Shown: in pieces, positions 6,928-17,847 of the stretch | Position numbering within the stretch: position 1 is the first letter of the stretch | Layout: every line of letters starts with the position of its first letter | Made by a program: the position numbers and the translations under genes | Origin: Sediminicola luteus | Lineage (GTDB): Bacteria; Bacteroidota; Bacteroidia; Flavobacteriales; Flavobacteriaceae | Assembly: GCF_002514735.1 (NCBI RefSeq) | Contig: NZ_KZ300476.1 | Span: forward strand, 496,001 to 560,000 | DNA length: 64,000 nt | Direction of reading: 5' to 3' | Notes under the pieces: generated by a model | The model's database searches: none | What the model was told of the DNA's origin: nothing | Seen by the model: the letters and a program-made list of their open reading frames with translations, nothing else

Positions 6928-8001
6928 TTGGAACCTTTTGTAGTATCGGCACGGAAATATAGACCCCAGACATTTAAAGATGTGGTGGGCCAAGCTTCCA
7001 TTACCAATACCCTACTCAATGCCATTAACAACGACCATTTGGCCCAAGCCTTATTGTTCTGTGGCCCTAGAGGGGTTGGTAAGACCACCTGTGCCCGTAT
7101 CCTGGCCAAAAAGATAAACCAAAGCGATACCGATAGTGAGGACGAGGATTTCGCTTTCAATATTTTTGAGCTCGATGCGGCCTCGAACAACTCGGTTGAC
7201 GACATTCGTAGCCTTATTGACCAAGTACGGATTCCGCCTCAAGTAGGGCAATACAAGGTCTATATTATAGATGAGGTACATATGCTGTCGCAGTCGGCTT
7301 TCAACGCCTTCTTAAAGACCTTGGAAGAACCGCCCAAGCATGCCATTTTTATCTTGGCCACTACCGAGAAGCATAAAATAATACCGACCATATTATCGCG
7401 TTGCCAAATCTTCGATTTTAAACGCATTACGGTTACCGATGCCGCCGAATACCTCAAGTACATAGCAGAAAACCAGGGTATAGAAGCCGATCCGGATGCC
7501 TTGCACATTATTGCCCAAAAGGCGGATGGCGCTATGCGCGATGCCCTTTCCATTTTTGACCGGGTAGTCAGTTTTTCGGGCAACAAACTCACCCGTAAGG
7601 CCGTTACCGAAAACCTGAACGTACTCGATTACGACACCTATTTCGAGGCTACCGATTTAATTTTGGCCCATGACATCCCGGGCTTGTTGTTACTTTTCAA
7701 CAAATGCCTGGCACAAGGTTTTGACGGCCATCATTTTATTGCCGGTCTGGCGTCACACTTCAGGGATTTAATGGTATGCCAACAACAAAGCACCATATCG
7801 CTTTTAGAAGTCGGGGAAACCGCCAAGGAAAAGTATCTAGAACAGGTAAAAAAAACCGGACTGGCCTTTTTGATTCAGGCTTTGGAAATCGCGAATACTT
7901 GCGACTTAAAATATAAGACCAGCCAAAATAGGCGTTTGCTCGTCGAACTTGCCCTAATGAAACTGGCCTCTATCGGATTCGATGGAGAAAAAAAAAAGTG
8001 A
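6928..8001 (+). CDS. dnaX: DNA polymerase III subunit gamma (short product of dnaX)
   Basis: A 357-residue clamp-loader ATPase. It begins at TTG 6928 (then EPFVVSARKYRPQTF); an in-frame TAA at 6913 excludes anything longer. Walker A is CGPRGVGKTT near residue 45, DEVH (Walker B) is in VYIIDEVHMLSQ, and LSRCQ is the arginine-finger (SRC) motif. The four-Cys zinc module of E. coli DnaX is replaced by an acidic linker (SDTDSEDEDF). The frame ends EKKK-TGA at an A10 run (7988-7997). The missing tau C-terminus continues directly in the -1 frame, so this is either the gamma product of programmed slippage or the result of a one-base homopolymer error. Confidence 0.93.
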   Translation: MEPFVVSARKYRPQTFKDVVGQASITNTLLNAINNDHLAQALLFCGPRGVGKTTCARILAKKINQSDTDSEDEDFAFNIFELDAASNNSVDDIRSLIDQVRIPPQVGQYKVYIIDEVHMLSQSAFNAFLKTLEEPPKHAIFILATTEKHKIIPTILSRCQIFDFKRITVTDAAEYLKYIAENQGIEADPDALHIIAQKADGAMRDALSIFDRVVSFSGNKLTRKAVTENLNVLDYDTYFEATDLILAHDIPGLLLLFNKCLAQGFDGHHFIAGLASHFRDLMVCQQQSTISLLEVGETAKEKYLEQVKKTGLAFLIQALEIANTCDLKYKTSQNRRLLVELALMKLASIGFDGEKKK

Positions 8002-8690
8002 GCACCCTAGTTAAAGGTGCCCTACTCTTACCCATAATACCCGCTTCCCATTTTAGGAACGAACCACCGAAACCCGTTATACAACCCAGTACGGGAGACC
8101 GGGCTGAAAAATCTACAGCCGAGATTTCATCGATTGAGGTAACCAAACCCAAAACCGTTACCCCTACCCCAGCTCCGGTCGAAAAACCGAAGATTACTTT
8201 AAAAAAGCTGGACATCAACCAACCCAAACAACGGGTATCGGGTCTATCGTTATCTAGCCTACGAGCCAAAAAACAGCACGAACTCAACAGACAAGAGCAG
8301 GAAGAAAAACCCGAAAACCTACCCAAGGATGCCTTTACGGAAGCCGACATGCAACGGCATTGGCACGATTTCGTTGAAAAGATAAAAGGTGAAGGGAAAC
8401 ATATTTTAGCCTCCAATCTCAATACGGATGTGCCGAAAATGAAAAATGCGGAAACCATTTGGATCGAACTGCCCAATGAGACCATGAAAAAGGAAATTGA
8501 GCGCGACCAATACGACCTAATGGTTTACCTAAGGCAAAAGTTGAACAACTATAGCGTAAACCTCTATATCACCATAAACGAGGAAACCGCCAAAAAATAC
8601 GCCTTTACCCCTCAGGAAAAATACGAGAAGATGCGGGAAAAGAATCCGGCCATAGAAAAACTAAGGCGTGGATTTGATTTGGAGATTTAA
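7998..8690 (+). CDS. dnaX: Tau-specific C-terminal part of DnaX, read in the -1 frame
   Basis: These 230 codons begin GTG-AGC-ACC immediately after the A10 run and have no credible independent start; homologous DnaX proteins are continuous through this point. The first half is a Pro/Lys-rich linker (KPKTVTPTPAPVEKPK). The second half is a compact domain (FTEADMQRHWHDFVEKIK ... KLRRGFDLEI) matching the C-terminus of Bacteroidota DnaX, which contacts the polymerase. A -1 shift on A-AAA-AAG joins it to the 357-residue upstream part to give a tau of about 587 residues, the normal size in Flavobacteria. Confidence 0.85.
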   Translation: MSTLVKGALLLPIIPASHFRNEPPKPVIQPSTGDRAEKSTAEISSIEVTKPKTVTPTPAPVEKPKITLKKLDINQPKQRVSGLSLSSLRAKKQHELNRQEQEEKPENLPKDAFTEADMQRHWHDFVEKIKGEGKHILASNLNTDVPKMKNAETIWIELPNETMKKEIERDQYDLMVYLRQKLNNYSVNLYITINEETAKKYAFTPQEKYEKMREKNPAIEKLRRGFDLEI

Positions 8691-8754: not shown

Positions 8755-10287
8755 TTACTCAGCACATTTTGCATTTTGCAAATCCAATAAACTAGGATTA
8801 TATAGATTTCCAGAACACATATATTCTTCTCCAGGCTCTCCATAAAATCCTTCCCCTAAATTTCCGTTTTGAAGTAACGAGTTAAGCCCACAATAATCTG
8901 ACAATTGGGCGTTTCCAATAAAAACGATTTGTTCAACACTTTCAAGGTTTTCCAATCCTGTTAAGTCCTTTATTAAAGTACCTTTGACCTCGAATTTACC
9001 TTTAATCGATTTAATCTTTTTTAAATCTTCTAGGGTTCTGATTTCTTTTTTCTCATTATCAACCCAGCTTTCACTTATAGTTAAATCCCCATCAATAGTA
9101 TGATAGTAATCCCTGACTGTGAGTTGACGAATATCATATGTATCATGAATCGAATAATCTCCGTGATAAACTCCTTCTGGTATTTCATTTGAACAATCAG
9201 AGTACACAATATCATAAACACTAGGATTATATCTATTAAAGGAGGTTAAACCAAAACCACCACTATACCCCTTGTTTTGAATCAATGATTTAATACCGCA
9301 ATAATTATATAGCGCAAAATTCCCACTAATCCGAATATCTACGACGCTTTTAATTGAAGAAAGCCCATTTAAATCTTCTATGAGTTCATTTCCTTCAACA
9401 ATTAAATCCTCTTTAATACTTGTAACCTCTGAAAGACCATCTAAATTCTTAAGTTTCGGATGATTTTTAATACGTAAATTATCCCCTACCTCTTGTATAT
9501 TCGACAAACCATTTAAGTTAGTAAGCTCCTTATTAGACAGTAAGCTTAAATAACTAGACAGCTTAGTTACACCAAGAAGCGCATCTATGTCTTTCAATGC
9601 ATAATTAGATAACAATTGAATACTAATCCCAACATCTAGATTTTCTAACCCATCTAGATTCTCTAACTTACCAGTACTAACTACCTGAAGACTACCTACA
9701 TAAACTATTTCGTTCAGACTAGCAAGACTAGTAATCTGGGACACAGTATTAATATTCCCAATATTTAAGGCCCCTGTAATTTCGGTATATCCTAATTGAG
9801 CAAAGCTCTCAACTTCATCTTGGGTATTAAGTACCACTGAACCTTCAAATATTGAATCTACGCCAAAACCACTAATCAAAATACTTTCATCCCCTTCTGT
9901 AGCGTTTGACTCAATTTCAATGGAACCACTATAATCAAGTATTTCCGAAGGACTAAAAGTAACTACAAACTCCTTGGTCGTATCTGGAGAAATATTTACA
10001 GATGTAACATCTATTGTAAAACCACTAGGCAGCCTTACATTATTTATATTCAAAGTAGAATTACCCGTATTCTGAACACTGAAAATTCTGGTAGTCGTGA
10101 TTCCAACAACAACATCACCAAAGTCAATCTCATTGGAATCATCAATTAACACATTAATAACTGCCGTTTCTTCAACTTTGGATTCAGGCACTTCCTTTAC
10201 CTCTTCTTGATCATTTGAAGAACAACAAGACAAAGTAAAAACAAAAAACAACAAGAATGTGCCGAGGAAATACCTTACTAAATTCAT
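8755..10287 (-). CDS. Lipoprotein with choice-of-anchor domain and L-domain-like leucine repeats
   Basis: A 510-residue probable outer-membrane lipoprotein. The signal peptide ends in a lipobox (FTLSCC, Cys21 or 22), followed by an acidic linker. Residues about 50-140 form an Ig-like ASH/choice-of-anchor D domain (GDVVVGITTTRIFSVQNTGN). From about 165 onward there are repeats of the type LENLDGLENL and LTNLNGLSNI, resembling receptor L-domain solenoids, in two blocks each closed by a Cys-containing cap (YCGIKSL and YCGLNSL). The gene is clearly more AT-rich than dnaX and the ebo genes beside it, suggesting accessory origin. Function unknown; surface binding or adhesion is a guess. Confidence 0.8.
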   Translation of the reverse strand: MNLVRYFLGTFLLFFVFTLSCCSSNDQEEVKEVPESKVEETAVINVLIDDSNEIDFGDVVVGITTTRIFSVQNTGNSTLNINNVRLPSGFTIDVTSVNISPDTTKEFVVTFSPSEILDYSGSIEIESNATEGDESILISGFGVDSIFEGSVVLNTQDEVESFAQLGYTEITGALNIGNINTVSQITSLASLNEIVYVGSLQVVSTGKLENLDGLENLDVGISIQLLSNYALKDIDALLGVTKLSSYLSLLSNKELTNLNGLSNIQEVGDNLRIKNHPKLKNLDGLSEVTSIKEDLIVEGNELIEDLNGLSSIKSVVDIRISGNFALYNYCGIKSLIQNKGYSGGFGLTSFNRYNPSVYDIVYSDCSNEIPEGVYHGDYSIHDTYDIRQLTVRDYYHTIDGDLTISESWVDNEKKEIRTLEDLKKIKSIKGKFEVKGTLIKDLTGLENLESVEQIVFIGNAQLSDYCGLNSLLQNGNLGEGFYGEPGEEYMCSGNLYNPSLLDLQNAKCAE

Positions 10288-10373: not shown

Positions 10374-10715
10374 TTACTTCGGTGTACGCCACCAATACAG
10401 CAACATCACCAAGGCATTGATACCCAAACCTAGGGCTTCCCTACCTTCCTCAATATTTTTGATATCGCCTCCGTCTATACTAAGCCCTTCGTAGGTCTCT
10501 GGCCAAAAAAGAATACCACCGATTACAAAAAGTACGGCCAAAATCATATAGACCATCTTCGGAAGCGCATTGACAATAAACAATAAAGAAGCCACTACGG
10601 CCGCCCCATAGATAAAATACCACAAGGTGGCGTCTTGGTCGTTGGCATTCACGCTGGCAGCCCATACAAAATAGCCACCAAAGGCAAATGCGAGGATTTT
10701 AAAGAACACCTTCAT
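10374..10715 (-). CDS. TMEM220-family membrane protein
   Basis: A 113-residue protein with four hydrophobic segments: residues 5-20, 30-47, 51-68 and a last one ending LVMLLYWWRTPK. The pattern FGGYFVWAASVNANDQDA ... LWYFIYGAA matches transmembrane family 220, whose function is unknown. The ATG lies 15 bases after the stop of eboF on the same strand with no terminator between, so it is probably the last gene of the ebo transcript. It is not among the six named ebo genes, which makes it a candidate extra component. Confidence 0.82.
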   Translation of the reverse strand: MKVFFKILAFAFGGYFVWAASVNANDQDATLWYFIYGAAVVASLLFIVNALPKMVYMILAVLFVIGGILFWPETYEGLSIDGGDIKNIEEGREALGLGINALVMLLYWWRTPK

Positions 10716-10730
10716 AATCTTATATTTTGG

Positions 10731-12107
10731 TTATTGATCAACAATATGTCGTTTGAGCAAATCGTACACTCCGACCGCTTCCAACCCCTCAGGGAACTGA
10801 CAGTCCAGGTGATTGGTAATGAACACCGGATGATCTTCTTTCTTTTTTGGAATACAACCATGCGAGCCTTTTACCAATTCTGGTTTTAGGGGAATTACAT
10901 CCATCACAGTCCTAAAACCCAGTTTTTTCTTGATGAGTTTACCAATGATTTTGGGCACTACAAATGGGTCTTGGGGATCGGTGAACATTTCCACCGGATC
11001 ATAACCGGGCTTTTTATGGATATCGACCATACGTGCATAATCGGGTGCCACGGCATCGTATTCCCAAAAATAATAGGTAAACCAGGCGTTTTCTTCCGCA
11101 ACCAAAACGATATCACCACAACGATCGTGGTTTAATCTATACTCTTCCAACGCATCACCATGTAAGACCTGCGCTATTCCCGCTTGCCCCTGCAATACTT
11201 GCAAAACCATTTCCTTTACCCCTGGGTCGTTCAGATAAATATGGGCGATTTGATGATCGGCCATAGCAAAGGCCTTTGAAGCACCGGCATCCAACAATTC
11301 CAGACCTCGCTCAACGCGAATCTGTAGTAAGTTGGCCGCCCGCAGCATCCGATTGATATGTATGGGCGTATCTACATCGGTTATACCATATTCGGACAAC
11401 AACACTACACGCGCTCCCTTAGCTTCGTAATAATCGACCAATTGGGCCACTACCCCATCTACTTCTTGCAGGTCTTTGGCGATTTTCGAAAAATCGTTCC
11501 CATGCCGTTGTACGTTATAATCTAAATGCGGCAGATAGATAAAAGTGAGTGTAGGATCGTGTTTTTTATCGGTATGTATACTGGCATCGGCGATCCATTG
11601 ACTGGATTTTATGGAAGTTTTAGGTCCCCAAAAATGGAACAGCGGAAACTCGCCCAACTCTTGTTTAAGACCGTCGCGAAGTTCGGCCGGGTGTGCATAA
11701 AAATCGGGCGTCTTTCTTCCGTCTGCCAAATAATTAGGCCTTGGTGTGGCCGAAAAATCGACCGTAGAATACATATTGTACCACCAAAACATATTGGCGC
11801 AGCTAAAGTTTGGATCAAGGGCTTTGAGTTCGTCCCAAATCTTGGGCGCCTCGACCAACTTATTCGATTGTCGCCATAGTTTTACCTCGCACTCATCTTT
11901 AAAGTACCAACCATTGGCCACTATACCGTGCTCTTGAGGCCATTTACCCGTGAGATAAGTAGATTGGGCCGTACAGGTAACCGCCGGCAACACCGGTTTA
12001 ATAGTGGCCCCCTTTCCCCTATCTTGAAACGCTTGGATAAAAGGGGTGTGTTCCCCAATCAATTTTTGGGAAAGCCCAACTATATTAATAACAACCGTTT
12101 TGTTCAT
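10731..12107 (-). CDS. eboF: EboF: alkaline-phosphatase/nucleotide-pyrophosphatase family protein
   Basis: A 458-residue phosphodiesterase/phosphatase-superfamily protein. The N-terminus VVINIVGLSQKLIGEHTP resembles the metal-binding start of this family but with Gly where many have Asp. The nucleophile Thr is in VLPAVTCTAQSTYLTGK (about residue 44). Later ligands are in LPHLDYNVQRHG, LLSEYGITDV and GSHGCIP. No signal peptide is visible. In ebo clusters EboF is one of the core proteins; its substrate is unknown. The ATG at 12107 shares a base with the EboE stop (TGATG), implying coupling; a GTG three bases upstream is the alternative start. Confidence 0.9.
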   Translation of the reverse strand: MNKTVVINIVGLSQKLIGEHTPFIQAFQDRGKGATIKPVLPAVTCTAQSTYLTGKWPQEHGIVANGWYFKDECEVKLWRQSNKLVEAPKIWDELKALDPNFSCANMFWWYNMYSTVDFSATPRPNYLADGRKTPDFYAHPAELRDGLKQELGEFPLFHFWGPKTSIKSSQWIADASIHTDKKHDPTLTFIYLPHLDYNVQRHGNDFSKIAKDLQEVDGVVAQLVDYYEAKGARVVLLSEYGITDVDTPIHINRMLRAANLLQIRVERGLELLDAGASKAFAMADHQIAHIYLNDPGVKEMVLQVLQGQAGIAQVLHGDALEEYRLNHDRCGDIVLVAEENAWFTYYFWEYDAVAPDYARMVDIHKKPGYDPVEMFTDPQDPFVVPKIIGKLIKKKLGFRTVMDVIPLKPELVKGSHGCIPKKKEDHPVFITNHLDCQFPEGLEAVGVYDLLKRHIVDQ

Positions 12108-13303
12108 CACGATTCAAATTCGCTTTTTAACCACTGCAACTCCCGAATAATACAAGCCCCCATTTCGGTCTTTAAGTCAGCCGGAAGCACATCCCAGGTA
12201 TAGGTTTCCACCTCCCAGTGCTCGCTTACCGCGTGGGTTTTGGCATAATCGACCACAGCTTTTATTTGGTCTTGGGTACTTTGTAAAAGTCCGTAACGTT
12301 CCAAGAAAATAGGCACATGAAAATGGGCACGTAATTCGGTAAAATCGCCTTTGTGCGCCAATAAATCGGGCAGATCGGCATAGGTTTTCACCCCTTCTTC
12401 AGTTTGCTGGGTTACTTGGTGCAAATAAGTGCTTTCGTCAAAGGCTTCCAGCACTTGCCACACCTTATTAGGCTCGGCATCGAAAAGTATGCGCAGGGCG
12501 GCACTTACCTGTACCTTACCCACTTGAATTCCGGCTTGTTTTAGGGCCCCTAGCGTATATTCCGGACTTTCATAGGCTAGGGCAAAATGACAGATATCGT
12601 AACAGAGGGTCAAATGCCTCTTGATCAGTCGTTCCGCTTCCTCAGCAGAAACCCCTAACTCGTTTTGAAACTTAGGCTTACCCAATCTCAACAGATACTC
12701 TTGAAAGAAATCGAGTACTTCCGGGCTGTTTTCCAAAAACCCATCGGGTTCGGGCTCAATATCAAGATGCAGGTATTTACCGGTTTCTTTCTCCAATTGA
12801 TGCAAGTACAGTGCCACTTCCAGCATTTGACTTGCCCCTTTCTCCAGAGCCCCTTCAGATTCAGATTGGCCTTTAAACCAATGCCGATAACCCACCGGAT
12901 TGGTCGATACCCCGCCAGACATACCTTGGGGTAAAATCTGGGAGAGTATAAAAAGCAACCGTTTGCTATAGTCTAATCGGGCCTGGGTGATCCAGTCAGG
13001 GGCATGCACCTGATCTTTTACCACCGTATTATGAAAACTACCGAATGGAAAACCGTTCATGGTAAACACATAGGTATCCGTCTCGGCCATCCAGTTTACG
13101 AATTCAGTCAAGTTATTTCCCTCCAGAAGTTCTTTGGAAGCGATATCGGACAAACGCAGACCAATCCCAAAAGACTTATCAGGACTCACCTCGGTCTTAA
13201 TCCTCGGAATATATTGTTTCAGTTTATCAAACACCTCTTCCCAATGCTCTCCCGCATGGATGTTGGTACAATAACTAATATGTCCGAAAGGGCTTAACTC
13301 CAT
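12107..13303 (-). CDS. eboE: EboE: TIM-barrel metabolite-traffic protein
   Basis: A 398-residue protein from ATG 13303 (MELSPFGHISYCTNIHAGEHW); a GTG at 13318 would add five residues. The opening HISYCTNIHAGE, the segments STNPVGYR, LDIEPEPDG (about residue 182) and LCYDICHFAL (about residue 232) are spaced like metal-binding positions of xylose-isomerase-like TIM barrels. This is the family called EboE in ebo operons; its reaction is not established. It overlaps the end of eboD by 10 bases and the start of eboF by one. Confidence 0.9.
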   Translation of the reverse strand: MELSPFGHISYCTNIHAGEHWEEVFDKLKQYIPRIKTEVSPDKSFGIGLRLSDIASKELLEGNNLTEFVNWMAETDTYVFTMNGFPFGSFHNTVVKDQVHAPDWITQARLDYSKRLLFILSQILPQGMSGGVSTNPVGYRHWFKGQSESEGALEKGASQMLEVALYLHQLEKETGKYLHLDIEPEPDGFLENSPEVLDFFQEYLLRLGKPKFQNELGVSAEEAERLIKRHLTLCYDICHFALAYESPEYTLGALKQAGIQVGKVQVSAALRILFDAEPNKVWQVLEAFDESTYLHQVTQQTEEGVKTYADLPDLLAHKGDFTELRAHFHVPIFLERYGLLQSTQDQIKAVVDYAKTHAVSEHWEVETYTWDVLPADLKTEMGACIIRELQWLKSEFES

Positions 13304-14445
13304 TGATTCAATTGCCACATGGCCTTTTTCATGGTCTCTTTATCAATGGTATCTACATCTACCTTTTTACCGATTTCGGAAATTAGGGTAATACACAGTT
13401 CCCCGCCCAAATGTTCGCGAAACTCTTCCAAACCAACCAAAAGACTATCTTCTTGCCCTTTTTCAATGGGTATTTTAAGCTCGAAACCACTATCGGTTAA
13501 GGTGGTTTTGATACGTTCTAAGGTCGTGGCATCGATCATACCTATTAAATGGGCATAGGTAACATCTAGGGCCATACCAATGGCCACCGCCTCACCATGA
13601 CGCAGTTCGTATTGGGTCAATTGCTCCAATTTATGGGCCGCCCAATGACCAAAATCCAACGGACGGGACGAACCACTTTCGAAAGGATCTCCGCCTTGGG
13701 CAATATGCTGCATATGCAATTCGGCACAGCGATGGATCAAATACTGCATGGGTTCCATCTCGCGACGCGCTAAGGCCTTGGCATTAGCCTCTAGATAGCC
13801 ATAGAAAGTGGCATCTTTGATCAAGGCCACCTTTACCGCTTCAGCGATTCCGGAAACCCAATCGCGTTTTTCGAGGGTGGTTAAAAAATCACTATCGTTT
13901 ATAATGGCAAAAGGCGGGGCGAAAGTGCCCAAAAAGTTCTTTTTGCCAAAAATATTCACACTGTTCTTTACCCCCACTGCAGCATCGTTCTGTGAGAGTA
14001 CCGTAGTGGGGATACGTATCAACTTAACCCCCCTATGGGCAATGGCAGCGGCATAACCGACCATATCTACCAACGCACCTCCACCAATGGCCAATACAAA
14101 AGAATGTCGGCAGATTCGGTTACCATCGATAGCTTCCAATACCGCATTCAAATGGGCTGTATCTACCTTGGCCTTTTCACCTCCGGAAACCACCAGTACT
14201 TCGGTAATGACCATATTATCGGCAAAGTGTTTTCCATAGGCCGCAATCTTATCGCTTAAATCTGGATGCGCTTGAGACACGGCATCATCTACAACGGCCA
14301 ATAGCTTCACCTTACCTTGCGAGCTATAGTCTTTTAACAGCTCATACAGCAAAGGATTATCGGCCCCAAAAACATCTTGGGTAAAGTGAAGGGTATAATC
14401 ATATTCAACGGCAAAACGCTGCCGTATCGGTTTTAAAAACTCCAT
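13294..14445 (-). CDS. eboD: EboD: 3-dehydroquinate synthase-like protein
   Basis: A 383-residue protein of the dehydroquinate synthase fold. The NAD-binding GGGALVDMVGYAAA (about residue 121) and the zinc-ligand positions are kept: Glu in GIAEAVKVALIKD, His in LDFGHWAAHKLE and His in LRHGEAVAIGM. It could therefore be catalytically active on a sugar-phosphate-like substrate, unlike degenerate paralogues. Lying inside the ebo operon, it is taken as EboD rather than the shikimate enzyme AroB. The gene starts nine bases after eboC stops. Confidence 0.92.
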   Translation of the reverse strand: MEFLKPIRQRFAVEYDYTLHFTQDVFGADNPLLYELLKDYSSQGKVKLLAVVDDAVSQAHPDLSDKIAAYGKHFADNMVITEVLVVSGGEKAKVDTAHLNAVLEAIDGNRICRHSFVLAIGGGALVDMVGYAAAIAHRGVKLIRIPTTVLSQNDAAVGVKNSVNIFGKKNFLGTFAPPFAIINDSDFLTTLEKRDWVSGIAEAVKVALIKDATFYGYLEANAKALARREMEPMQYLIHRCAELHMQHIAQGGDPFESGSSRPLDFGHWAAHKLEQLTQYELRHGEAVAIGMALDVTYAHLIGMIDATTLERIKTTLTDSGFELKIPIEKGQEDSLLVGLEEFREHLGGELCITLISEIGKKVDVDTIDKETMKKAMWQLNQWS

Positions 14446-14454
14446 ATCTGCAAT

Positions 14455-15351
14455 CTACGTAACAGCGAATTGCTTCGCCAAGAATTTAGACAGCGGTAAC
14501 AACAACAGCACCAAAAGTGCCATTTGCCATACCCCTGCCGCGGCACACCAAACCGAAGCGAGCAATACAACGCCCATAACCCCGGCAATTACCGCTTTTT
14601 TAATATTCGTGGGACTATTTTGTGAATACGCCCGAAACAGCGGAAGATACACAAATCCGGTAAACAGCAGGGCAAATGGTAGTACATACCACAGATTTCC
14701 AAGGCCGTTTGCCACCCAAAGCAGACTTACTACAACCGTTGCGTACATTATGCCCGCAACCACGATCTGCAACTTATTTTTCCCGAAAACCTCGCCCCTA
14801 CTGATCAAGGTAATGGCATAAATATAAACTACGGGTACCAAAGCGAACCACCAGTTTTCTACCAACCCTAAAACAGACATACCCAACAACAGATTGAGCC
14901 CCCTACAGCTTCCCATGACCAATGGCCCAAAAAAGCCGTGTTTTTTGGCTAAGGCATCGTACAATAGTATCGCCAAGGCCAAAGCCAAGGCCAAACTGCC
15001 GGCCAAGACATGTACCAAAAAAGCTAAGGCCACACCAATAGACATCAAGGAGGCACCAAATAAAGAGGCCGCTTTTACTGCAATAAGACCACTAGGTAAA
15101 GGGCGCTCGGGCCGCTCGACCCGATCAATGGGCAGATCGAAAACATCGTTTAAGATTACACCTGCAGCATACAGCAACACACTTGAACTGAGCAATACCA
15201 AGAAATCCAACCATGGTACTGCAGACCAATTGGAGCCTTGAATGGCTACAAAAGCCCCAGCCAAAGAAGCCCCGGCCACAATATCGGCTGCACTCGTAGG
15301 TAAATTGGCCGGTCGGGCCAATTGCAGGTATCCTTTTAGTTTTGGGTTCAC
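14455..15351 (-). CDS. eboC: EboC: UbiA-family prenyltransferase
   Basis: A 298-residue integral membrane protein with about eight to nine segments. The first aspartate-rich motif is NDVFDLPIDRVERPERPLPS (about residue 68), the prenyl-diphosphate site of UbiA enzymes. The second expected region, LLYDALAKKHGFFG with GSCRGLNLLLG, keeps one Asp only, so the second motif is weaker than in UbiA. It probably joins an isoprenoid to an unknown acceptor at the inner membrane. Its GTG or ATG region abuts eboB: the eboC start at 15351 coincides with the last base of eboB. Confidence 0.92.
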   Translation of the reverse strand: MNPKLKGYLQLARPANLPTSAADIVAGASLAGAFVAIQGSNWSAVPWLDFLVLLSSSVLLYAAGVILNDVFDLPIDRVERPERPLPSGLIAVKAASLFGASLMSIGVALAFLVHVLAGSLALALALAILLYDALAKKHGFFGPLVMGSCRGLNLLLGMSVLGLVENWWFALVPVVYIYAITLISRGEVFGKNKLQIVVAGIMYATVVVSLLWVANGLGNLWYVLPFALLFTGFVYLPLFRAYSQNSPTNIKKAVIAGVMGVVLLASVWCAAAGVWQMALLVLLLLPLSKFLAKQFAVT

Positions 15352-16259
15352 TACTCTATATGCTCACTATCAATCCTAGGCGTTTGTCCCCTTAGGATAC
15401 TATTATCATTGAACAATTGCGACTGATCGATGCCCTTGGCGTTCTTCCAGTGTTCTTCTTTCATAACCCCGGTTTGGCTGTAGGCCTCCAAGGCGTTACT
15501 ATAACAAGTTTTGATCACATCTTCGCGCGATACGCCCGAACGCAACATTAAACCTGCCGTTTTTGGTACGGCCATAGGATCGCTTATACCCCAATCGGCC
15601 GAACTGTCGACAATAATGCGCTCACTTCCAAAACGTTTTACCACTTCTACCATACGGGCATTTCCCATTTTCGTTTTCGGATAAATGGTAAAGGCCGCCC
15701 AAAACCCTTTATCGAGTACATCTTGCACCGTTTCCTCATTGTTATGATCAATGATTACCTGCGAGGGCTTAAGGCCATGCTCCAAACAGACTTCCATACT
15801 TTTGCGGGTACCTTCTTTTTTATCGCGATGGGGGGTATGTACCTGTACCAAAAGATCCAATTCCTTGGCCAACTCCAATTGGGCCCTGAAATACTTGTCT
15901 TCGGCCGGGGTTTGATCGTCATAGCCGATCTCTCCGATACCCACCACATTTTCTTTATGCAGATATAAGGGCAACAACTCCATTACTTGTTCGGCCAAAG
16001 CTTCATTGTTGGCCTCTTTGGAATTTAAACCTATCGTACAATAATGTTTGATCCCGAACTGACTGGCACGAAAAGGCTCCCACCCCACCAAACTGCTAAA
16101 ATAGTCTTGAAAACTCCCAATCTGGGTACGGGGTTGGCCCAACCAAAACGAAGGTTCGATTACGGCCACTACGCCGGCGGCAGCCATGGCTTCATAATCG
16201 TCGGTCGTACGGGCCGACATATGTACGTGGGGGTCTATAAGCATCAACTTCTCTTCCAT
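15351..16259 (-). CDS. eboB: EboB: TatD-like metal-dependent hydrolase
   Basis: A 302-residue amidohydrolase-fold protein. Metal ligands appear in order: DPHVHM (residue 9 on), Glu in GIGEIGYD (about residue 108), His in QVHTPH (about 140), His in IIDHNN (about 170) and Asp in IVDSSADWG (about 218). It resembles TatD DNases but has the extended form found in ebo operons. It is separated by one base from eboA and overlaps eboC by one. Substrate unknown; hydrolysis of a small metabolite or conjugate is inferred from context. Confidence 0.91.
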   Translation of the reverse strand: MEEKLMLIDPHVHMSARTTDDYEAMAAAGVVAVIEPSFWLGQPRTQIGSFQDYFSSLVGWEPFRASQFGIKHYCTIGLNSKEANNEALAEQVMELLPLYLHKENVVGIGEIGYDDQTPAEDKYFRAQLELAKELDLLVQVHTPHRDKKEGTRKSMEVCLEHGLKPSQVIIDHNNEETVQDVLDKGFWAAFTIYPKTKMGNARMVEVVKRFGSERIIVDSSADWGISDPMAVPKTAGLMLRSGVSREDVIKTCYSNALEAYSQTGVMKEEHWKNAKGIDQSQLFNDNSILRGQTPRIDSEHIE

Positions 16260-16260
16260 A

Positions 16261-17106
16261 TCAATTCTTTAAGGTATTCCAATTCAATTCATTTGTTTGT
16301 ACGGCCTCGCTAAACTCAGGATATATCCCTAACAGCGCCTTGGCTTGGGTATTGGTGGCATTTGAACAACATAAGGTCGCCGCCTTGCGCTCTACCGGAT
16401 CTTCACTCTGGAACAAACGCTCCATATCTTCTAACAACACCCCTTCTAAATAATGGGTTACCGGTCGCCAAATATGGGCATCGATAGTTCGCGAAGCCGC
16501 CCAACGTTCGTGGGCATAGTCGGACACGATACGGGCCAAATCGGCATTGCCTCGAGCTTCTATATCACGTATACCATTCAAATCGCTTTGGATAAAAGCA
16601 GCCTTTAGGAACATTTGGTTCCATTGCTGGTCATTAAAATGTAGCGCCGGATACGGATTATCTTGGGAAATGGCATCGAAAACCGTCCCAATATTGGTTC
16701 TTAGCGCATCTACCGCCGTATCCCTAAAATATGCAGCCTGGGGAAGGAAATGAAGATACTTTAAAAAGGTCTCCAATTCGGTAATATCGGCCACTTGGGT
16801 CAGTTTGACCACCTTGTCCTTAAAAAAATCAAAGTCTTGCTCCAACACATATATCAAGAGATACATACGGGCTATTTCCAGCTCGTTTGCCCTATGCGAT
16901 TTAAAGTATCCCAAGCCGCTATCCTCCCCATCCTCGATTTCGAGTACATTAGAGGTCGCTTTCCTAGCCAACAACGTATAGGTCAAGAACAAATCTTTAG
17001 CAGATTGGTTCGCTACTATTATTTCTGATTTTTCCGACAACCATTGGGCCACGGAATCTGTAAGTAAAGGCAATATTTTATCGGACCTTAACATGGGCAA
17101 CAACAT
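16261..17106 (-). CDS. eboA: EboA domain protein
   Basis: A 281-residue, almost entirely helical soluble protein without catalytic motifs, matching the EboA family that heads ebo operons. Recognisable positions are the FRDTAVDALRTNIGTVFDAI stretch near residue 128 and RWAASRTIDAHIWRPV near residue 203. HEAT-like helical packing and a scaffold role are inference. The start is ATG 17106 (MLLPMLRSD), with a second ATG four codons on. It is the first gene of the operon and diverges from miaE; a 7-base inverted repeat lies 26 bases upstream of it. Confidence 0.88.
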   Translation of the reverse strand: MLLPMLRSDKILPLLTDSVAQWLSEKSEIIVANQSAKDLFLTYTLLARKATSNVLEIEDGEDSGLGYFKSHRANELEIARMYLLIYVLEQDFDFFKDKVVKLTQVADITELETFLKYLHFLPQAAYFRDTAVDALRTNIGTVFDAISQDNPYPALHFNDQQWNQMFLKAAFIQSDLNGIRDIEARGNADLARIVSDYAHERWAASRTIDAHIWRPVTHYLEGVLLEDMERLFQSEDPVERKAATLCCSNATNTQAKALLGIYPEFSEAVQTNELNWNTLKN

Positions 17107-17220: not shown

Positions 17221-17248
17221 TTGCTAAGTTCAATTATTTTTACCTTTG
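17221..17248 (+). promoter_or_regulatory. Promoter of miaE (TTG-N17-TACCTTTG)
   Basis: TTG at 17221-17223, 17 bases, then TACCTTTG at 17241-17248. RNA would begin near 17254, 12 bases before the ATG at 17266. This argues against a TTG start at 17221 for miaE. Confidence 0.75.
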
Positions 17249-17265
17249 GAACAAATATTTTACAG

Positions 17266-17847
17266 ATGCTAGGCCTAAAATTACCGACCGACCCCAGATG
17301 GGTCAATATTGTTGAGAAAAACATAGCCGAAATACTAACCGATCATGCGTATTGCGAACAAAAAGCGGCCAGCATGGCCATTTCTTTGATCGTAAAATTC
17401 CCGGAAAAAGTAGATTTGGTACAATCGATGACGGCTTTGGCCCGTGAAGAAATGGCCCATTTTAAAATGGTGCACGATTGGATCATAAAACGAGGTTATG
17501 AACTGGGCCGGGAACGTAAAGACGAATATGTGGTGGCCCTTCATAAGTTTTTCCCCAAGGGAGGAAGCCGCAATACCCATATGATACACCAATTGTTGGT
17601 AGCCGCCCTAATTGAAGCCCGAAGCTGCGAACGTTTTCGTTTATTATCTGAAAACATAGCCGATAAGGAATTGGCTGAATTTTATCGTGATCTTATGGTA
17701 AGTGAGGCCAATCATTATACCATGTTTCTAAAATTCGCCAGGGAATATGGCGACCGGGCCGAAGTGGACCAAAAATGGGAAGATTTATTACAATATGAGG
17801 CCGAACTAATGAAAGAGCTCGGTAAAAAAGAGACTGTGCACGGATAA
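17266..17847 (+). CDS. miaE: tRNA-(ms2io6A)-hydroxylase
   Basis: A 193-residue non-heme diiron enzyme that hydroxylates the isopentenyl group of ms2i6A37 in tRNA. The start is ATG 17266 (MLGLKLPTDPRWVNIV), which fits family length and lies just behind the promoter. Iron ligands: Glu in LTDHAYCEQKAA, the ExxH of REEMAHFKMVH, Glu in LIEARSCERF and the second ExxH in SEANHYTMF. It stands alone, diverging from the ebo operon and closed by a strong terminator. Confidence 0.93.
   Translation: MLGLKLPTDPRWVNIVEKNIAEILTDHAYCEQKAASMAISLIVKFPEKVDLVQSMTALAREEMAHFKMVHDWIIKRGYELGRERKDEYVVALHKFFPKGGSRNTHMIHQLLVAALIEARSCERFRLLSENIADKELAEFYRDLMVSEANHYTMFLKFAREYGDRAEVDQKWEDLLQYEAELMKELGKKETVHG

Follow-up and report, generated by a model that had tools for sequence, protein, structure and literature searches.

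A TMEM220-family membrane protein gene as a candidate partner of the ebo operon in Bacteroidota

The window analyzed here, a 64,000-nucleotide stretch of Sediminicola luteus DNA, contains the six genes of the ebo operon on one strand (the reverse strand) in the order ABCDEF. These are eboA (16261..17106), which encodes an EboA domain (NF035938, E 1e-42); eboB (15351..16259), which encodes a TatD-like hydrolase related to TatD; eboC (14455..15351), for a UbiA-like EboC (NF035940, E 1e-98); eboD (13294..14445), for a dehydroquinate-synthase-like (DHQS-like) sugar phosphate cyclase; eboE (12107..13318), for a TIM-barrel EboE (NF035939, E 3e-141); and eboF (10731..12110), for a member of the phosphodiesterase family PF01663. 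The six genes and their order are shared with the canonical operon of Bacteroidetes and Cyanobacteria (Open Biol 2016, PMC5133447; mBio 2018, PMC6282210; Ubi-297/EboC, PMC9235831), and the main texts of all three papers present ebo as six genes, A to F. Unlike the published operons, the one in the window is followed by a seventh gene, of the TMEM220 family, which in other genera lies before eboA.

This gene, the proposed Bacteroidota partner of ebo, occupies 10374..10715 on the reverse strand, begins with ATG and encodes a protein of 113 amino acids with four transmembrane helices. It shares the strand of eboF and is separated from it by 15 bases (10716..10730) in which neither a terminator-like site nor a forward promoter-like site was found. 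The sole terminator-like hairpin downstream of eboF, with a T-rich tail, is at the 3' end of the TMEM220 gene (10379..10395, reverse strand); the scan returned 16 such sites in the window against 10 expected in shuffled sequences, so that a hairpin of this kind is weak evidence alone. A common strand, a short gap and no intervening terminator are the marks of a gene belonging to the operon, and they were found in the relatives as well, where the gaps between TMEM220 and its ebo neighbor are mostly between -38 and +55 bases, similar to the gaps within the operon, and typical values are -17 to +25. A promoter between miaE and eboA would probably drive TMEM220 together with eboA-F. A sigma-70 promoter scan was set aside because it gave fewer matches than shuffled sequences and because the promoter type of Bacteroidota differs from sigma-70.

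The site that holds ebo and TMEM220 is conserved, with a divergent miaE-like gene (17221..17847, forward strand) on the left and, in relatives, a convergent dnaX on the right. In the window, dnaX (6928..8690, forward strand) was observed as two overlapping frames of 357 and 230 aa, split at an A-rich run; the dnaX of relatives is a single ORF of ~600 aa. A frameshift, an assembly error and programmed frameshifting are all possible causes of the split. Between TMEM220 and dnaX there is also a reverse-strand gene (8755-10287) for a secreted protein of 510 aa resembling choice-of-anchor-D and leucine-rich-repeat proteins. Since dnaX directly follows TMEM220 in nearly all relatives checked, this gene appears to have been inserted.

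The 113-aa protein is a full-length match to the Pfam family TMEM220 (PF15071), covering profile positions 1-100 of 100 (E 2.3e-20; 73.6 bits against a cut-off of 27). An AlphaFold2 model built with 23 family members (pLDDT 91.5) has four helices, at residues 3-25, 29-47, 53-70 and 85-110. The initial annotation had described a four-segment membrane protein starting 15 bases past eboF with no terminator between them, and the PF15071 match, the modeled helices and the scan for terminator-like sites all agree with this description. Two motifs characterize the protein, ND-x-D...W...Y and E-xx-RE-xx-G, and their residues N25, D26, D28, W32, Y36, E89, R92, E93 and G96 are near-invariant across 113 family members. 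Loop 1 has 2.0 acidic and 0.3 basic residues, while loop 2 and the termini are basic, and from this charge pattern both conserved motifs and their loops are predicted, by the positive-inside rule, to face the periplasm. Structural searches with the model gave a best E of 2.4 in Foldseek and a best Z of 8.5 in VIA-align (ROP bundle, VKOR-like), and no transporter fold was recognized by either. The VKOR-like match was dropped as a fold relative since its score lies in the range that generic helical bundles give and, with no convincing fold relative, we claim no function on the basis of fold.

No bacterial function of TMEM220 was found in the literature searched, and no mention of the family was found in the main text of PMC5133447. 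Relative to this literature, the link between TMEM220 and ebo is new. Human TMEM220 was reported to reside in the Golgi apparatus and to affect glycoprotein secretion (PMC6979480), from which we imply no functional link to the bacterial protein.

Adjacency of TMEM220 and ebo on the same strand was observed in 53 of the 61 Flavobacteriaceae genomes that have both, with TMEM220 3' of eboF in 46 and just 5' of eboA in 7. Among 80 named EboE loci, TMEM220 lies directly before eboA in Mucilaginibacter, Pedobacter, Daejeonella, Ferruginibacter, Salegentibacter, Flagellimonas and Allomuricauda, after eboF in Arenibacter, Croceivirga, Robertkochia and one Cyclobacteriaceae genome, and near ebo in reverse orientation in Adhaeribacter. 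Some individual loci depart from these layouts. Two copies of TMEM220 are present upstream of ebo in L160 (genome G489) and in L189 (Salegentibacter sp. 24), and those of L189 come from different TMEM220 clades and lie on either side of genes for a 3-keto-disaccharide hydrolase and a cytochrome c protein. In Croceivirga thetidis (L213), the operon is interrupted between eboA and eboB by two long reverse-strand ORFs of 651 and 634 aa.

In the clade of the window genome, the locus reads miaE - eboABCDEF - TMEM220 - dnaX, and in six genomes lacking ebo it reads miaE - TMEM220 - dnaX. In four genomes, TMEM220 stays at the miaE-dnaX site and ebo is located elsewhere. On the TMEM220 tree, ebo-linked copies in preceding, following and convergent arrangements are scattered over several separate parts, and the linkage state requires 17 Fitch changes. 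The separate placement of the linked copies, together with their differing arrangements, indicates that the adjacency arose repeatedly, and its retention in dozens of genera argues that it is not due to chance.

Across 328 Flavobacteriaceae genomes, TMEM220 was present in 61 of 66 with EboE and in 24 of 262 without (odds ratio, 121; p 3e-40). The exceptions were searched for EboC, which was absent from all 24 genomes with TMEM220 but not EboE and from three of the five with EboE but not TMEM220 (G313, G498 and G503). These three were rejected as examples of ebo without TMEM220, having lone EboE-like genes instead, so that TMEM220 is present in 61 of 63 true ebo-positive Flavobacteriaceae. The lone genes (L128, L131 and L132) adjoin miaE and may be remnants, or EboE may be used independently there. 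Among 296 sampled genomes from the phylum Bacteroidota, TMEM220 was found in 18 of 24 with ebo versus 21 of 272 without (p 2e-13).

The association also holds where the genes are apart. Among unlinked ebo loci of Flavobacteriaceae, TMEM220 was present in the genome in 8 of 10 cases versus a background of 9% (p 6e-7), and for 26 of the 28 named Bacteroidota ebo loci that lack TMEM220 within 10 kb, the gene is present elsewhere in the genome. Physical hitch-hiking cannot explain co-occurrence in such genomes. Correlated evolution was assessed by Pagel tests on a dnaX tree of 134 Flavobacteriaceae, comprising all genomes with TMEM220, EboE or the TonB receptor described below plus 37 controls (trees were made with FastTree). 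For TMEM220 and ebo, the likelihood ratio (LR) was 35.9, a value reached in 0 of 100 null simulations (maximum, 18.4). The two evolve together on the species tree, far beyond chance. Random occurrence of TMEM220 with respect to ebo, which the initial annotation had named as grounds for refutation, is thus contradicted by the genome counts, by the Pagel test and by adjacency in at least three arrangements and several families.

The same annotation had proposed TMEM220 as a seventh member of the ebo operon. Within Bacteroidota, its occurrence, linkage and coevolution partly support this, but the membership is not universal. TMEM220 was found in none of 12 ebo-positive cyanobacterial genomes (and in none of 77 sampled cyanobacteria) and is missing from 6 of the 24 ebo-positive genomes of the phylum sample, which rules it out as a universal core gene. 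Its absence from ebo-positive cyanobacteria, even though ebo has a proven phenotype in Nostoc (PMC6282210), suggests that it is an accessory to ebo as found in Bacteroidota.

In 13 loci of the type lacking ebo, a gene for a TonB-dependent receptor (TBDR; cluster 19) was observed next to a long-form TMEM220. The TBDR is a stand-alone, highly conserved gene, represented by L106:9486-12308 and 28 orthologues (29 genomes in all) with 53-100% identity to the query. Its product has a barrel (PF00593, E 4e-27) and a plug (PF07715, E 1e-8), as do TonB-dependent siderophore receptors, whose model TIGR01783 is the nearest in NCBIfam but is matched at only 78-91 bits, below the cut-off of 223.5. In Flavobacteriaceae, the TBDR was present in 19 of 24 genomes with TMEM220 and without ebo, in 3 of 61 with both and in 7 of 238 with neither. 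Five genomes have TMEM220 with neither ebo nor the TBDR, and seven have the TBDR without TMEM220 and without ebo. Adjacency to TMEM220 is what first drew attention to the receptor, so the linked cases are in part a product of selection, and the fair test is provided by genomes with short-form TMEM220, in which the TBDR is always unlinked. Among these, it was found in 7 of 8 without ebo versus 2 of 51 with ebo (p 8e-7).

The dnaX tree gave the same picture. Among ebo-negative tips, TMEM220 and the TBDR are correlated (LR 27.2, 0 of 60 nulls), and among TMEM220-positive tips, ebo and the TBDR are associated with the opposite sign, being anticorrelated (LR 38.5-38.7, 0 of 60 nulls). In the clade of the window genome, about seven losses of ebo were counted by tree inspection, and the TBDR was present in all but one (G401). 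In the genus g286, one genome (G582) has both ebo and the TBDR and another (G441) has the TBDR only, as expected if the receptor, and with it import, preceded loss of ebo. None of the ebo loci examined had a receptor of this kind next to the operon. Outside Flavobacteriaceae, the TBDR was found in 0 of 20 genomes with TMEM220 and without ebo, with only 13 receptor candidates scored per genome. This rules out the receptor as a general rule of Bacteroidota and limits a make-or-import relationship to, at best, the family.

Pairs of this make-or-scavenge kind are familiar from bacterial physiology, cobalamin synthesis and uptake through BtuB being an example. As in such pairs, the receptor occurs in genomes without the biosynthetic operon and hardly ever in those with it. 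Unlike in such pairs, the partner TMEM220 is not an importer of the classical ABC or MFS kind, and the pattern was seen in Flavobacteriaceae alone.

Next, we considered what TMEM220 might do. The initial annotation had pointed to a pathway proposed to move a metabolite across the inner membrane. Outward movement is disfavored, in that TMEM220 survives the loss of ebo at the same site, usually together with the TBDR, and a role on the finished product is preferred instead; a protein that outlasts the biosynthetic genes while a receptor is present most simply performs a step on the finished compound. We therefore hypothesized that eboA-F may make a small molecule that acts in, or arrives at, the periplasm, and that TMEM220 may bind, import or use this product from the periplasmic side, where its conserved charged and aromatic residues are predicted to lie. 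In Flavobacteriaceae that have lost ebo, the dedicated siderophore-type TBDR would import the compound or a close relative and so feed the same TMEM220 step. The overall explanation, in which TMEM220 is a genuine, Bacteroidota-specific functional partner of ebo with both a postsynthesis step and import, appears to us about evenly balanced. The part of it that places TMEM220 after synthesis, at the periplasmic face of the inner membrane, binding, taking up or using the small molecule of eboA-F, is put forward tentatively, at somewhat less than even chances, from predicted topology and the pattern of gene loss.

Whether the ebo product is an exchangeable molecule, similar to a vitamin or siderophore, that is made by ebo-positive Bacteroidota and imported through the TBDR by some ebo-negative Flavobacteriaceae, with TMEM220 as the shared inner-membrane user or importer, is a more doubtful proposition, which we offer as a possibility only. 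In vitro, the EboC enzymes of Maribacter, Zobellia and Algoriphagus attach farnesyl groups to quinoline carboxylic acids (PMC9235831), in keeping with an ebo product that is small and lipophilic. The ebo operon is widespread, and the only phenotype found for it in the literature searched is scytonemin export in cyanobacteria. TMEM220 and the receptor that replaces ebo provide two handles on it, namely, a protein that is probably in contact with the product and strains in which the product should elicit a response. They would also offer a first clue to what the TMEM220 family, which has a human member too, does in bacteria.

A role in making or exporting the product, for example as a partner of EboC or as an outward carrier of an ebo-dependent metabolite over the inner membrane, would suit a four-helix membrane protein that is tightly linked to ebo and co-occurs with it almost obligately in Flavobacteriaceae. 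It would also be consistent with Nostoc, where the scytonemin monomer reaches the periplasm only with ebo (PMC6282210). We nevertheless regard such a role as unlikely. The 24 of 262 ebo-negative genomes that retain TMEM220, in some cases exactly where ebo has gone missing, all lack EboC, indicating that TMEM220 has a job without the biosynthetic enzymes; moreover, cyanobacterial ebo runs without TMEM220, and no transporter fold was recognized for its model. Chance insertion of ebo beside an unrelated TMEM220 gene resident at a fixed locus is very improbable. A single syntenic site, miaE-TMEM220-dnaX, does account for most cases in which TMEM220 follows eboF, and TMEM220 can occupy that site without ebo, but the arrangement of the linked genes varies across several loci and families, co-occurrence persists when the genes are unlinked, and their evolution is correlated on the species tree.

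The genes that surround TMEM220 and the TBDR elsewhere suggest a further reading, in which TMEM220 takes part in periplasmic sugar oxidation and co-occurs with ebo and the TBDR owing to a common lifestyle, without being biochemically connected in any direct way to the ebo product. Long-form TMEM220 and the TBDR lie in or by islands of this type in many ebo-negative genomes, with genes for GSDH, ThuA, cytochrome c, 3-keto-disaccharide hydrolase and GFO/IDH/MocA proteins. In L162, L189 and L211, genes for ThuA/GSDH/cytochrome c or 3-keto-disaccharide hydrolase lie next to ebo itself. The frequency of these islands keeps a lifestyle explanation in consideration. We judge it quite unlikely, since short-form TMEM220 at the miaE-dnaX site has no sugar genes there and a lifestyle explains neither the repeated adjacency in varied arrangements nor the opposite signs of ebo and the TBDR in TMEM220-positive genomes. 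In three loci (L162, L211 and L230), a large ThuA protein (with GSDH and cytochrome c) or a ThuA-like protein is encoded directly after ebo, which hints at a link between ebo and sugar oxidation.
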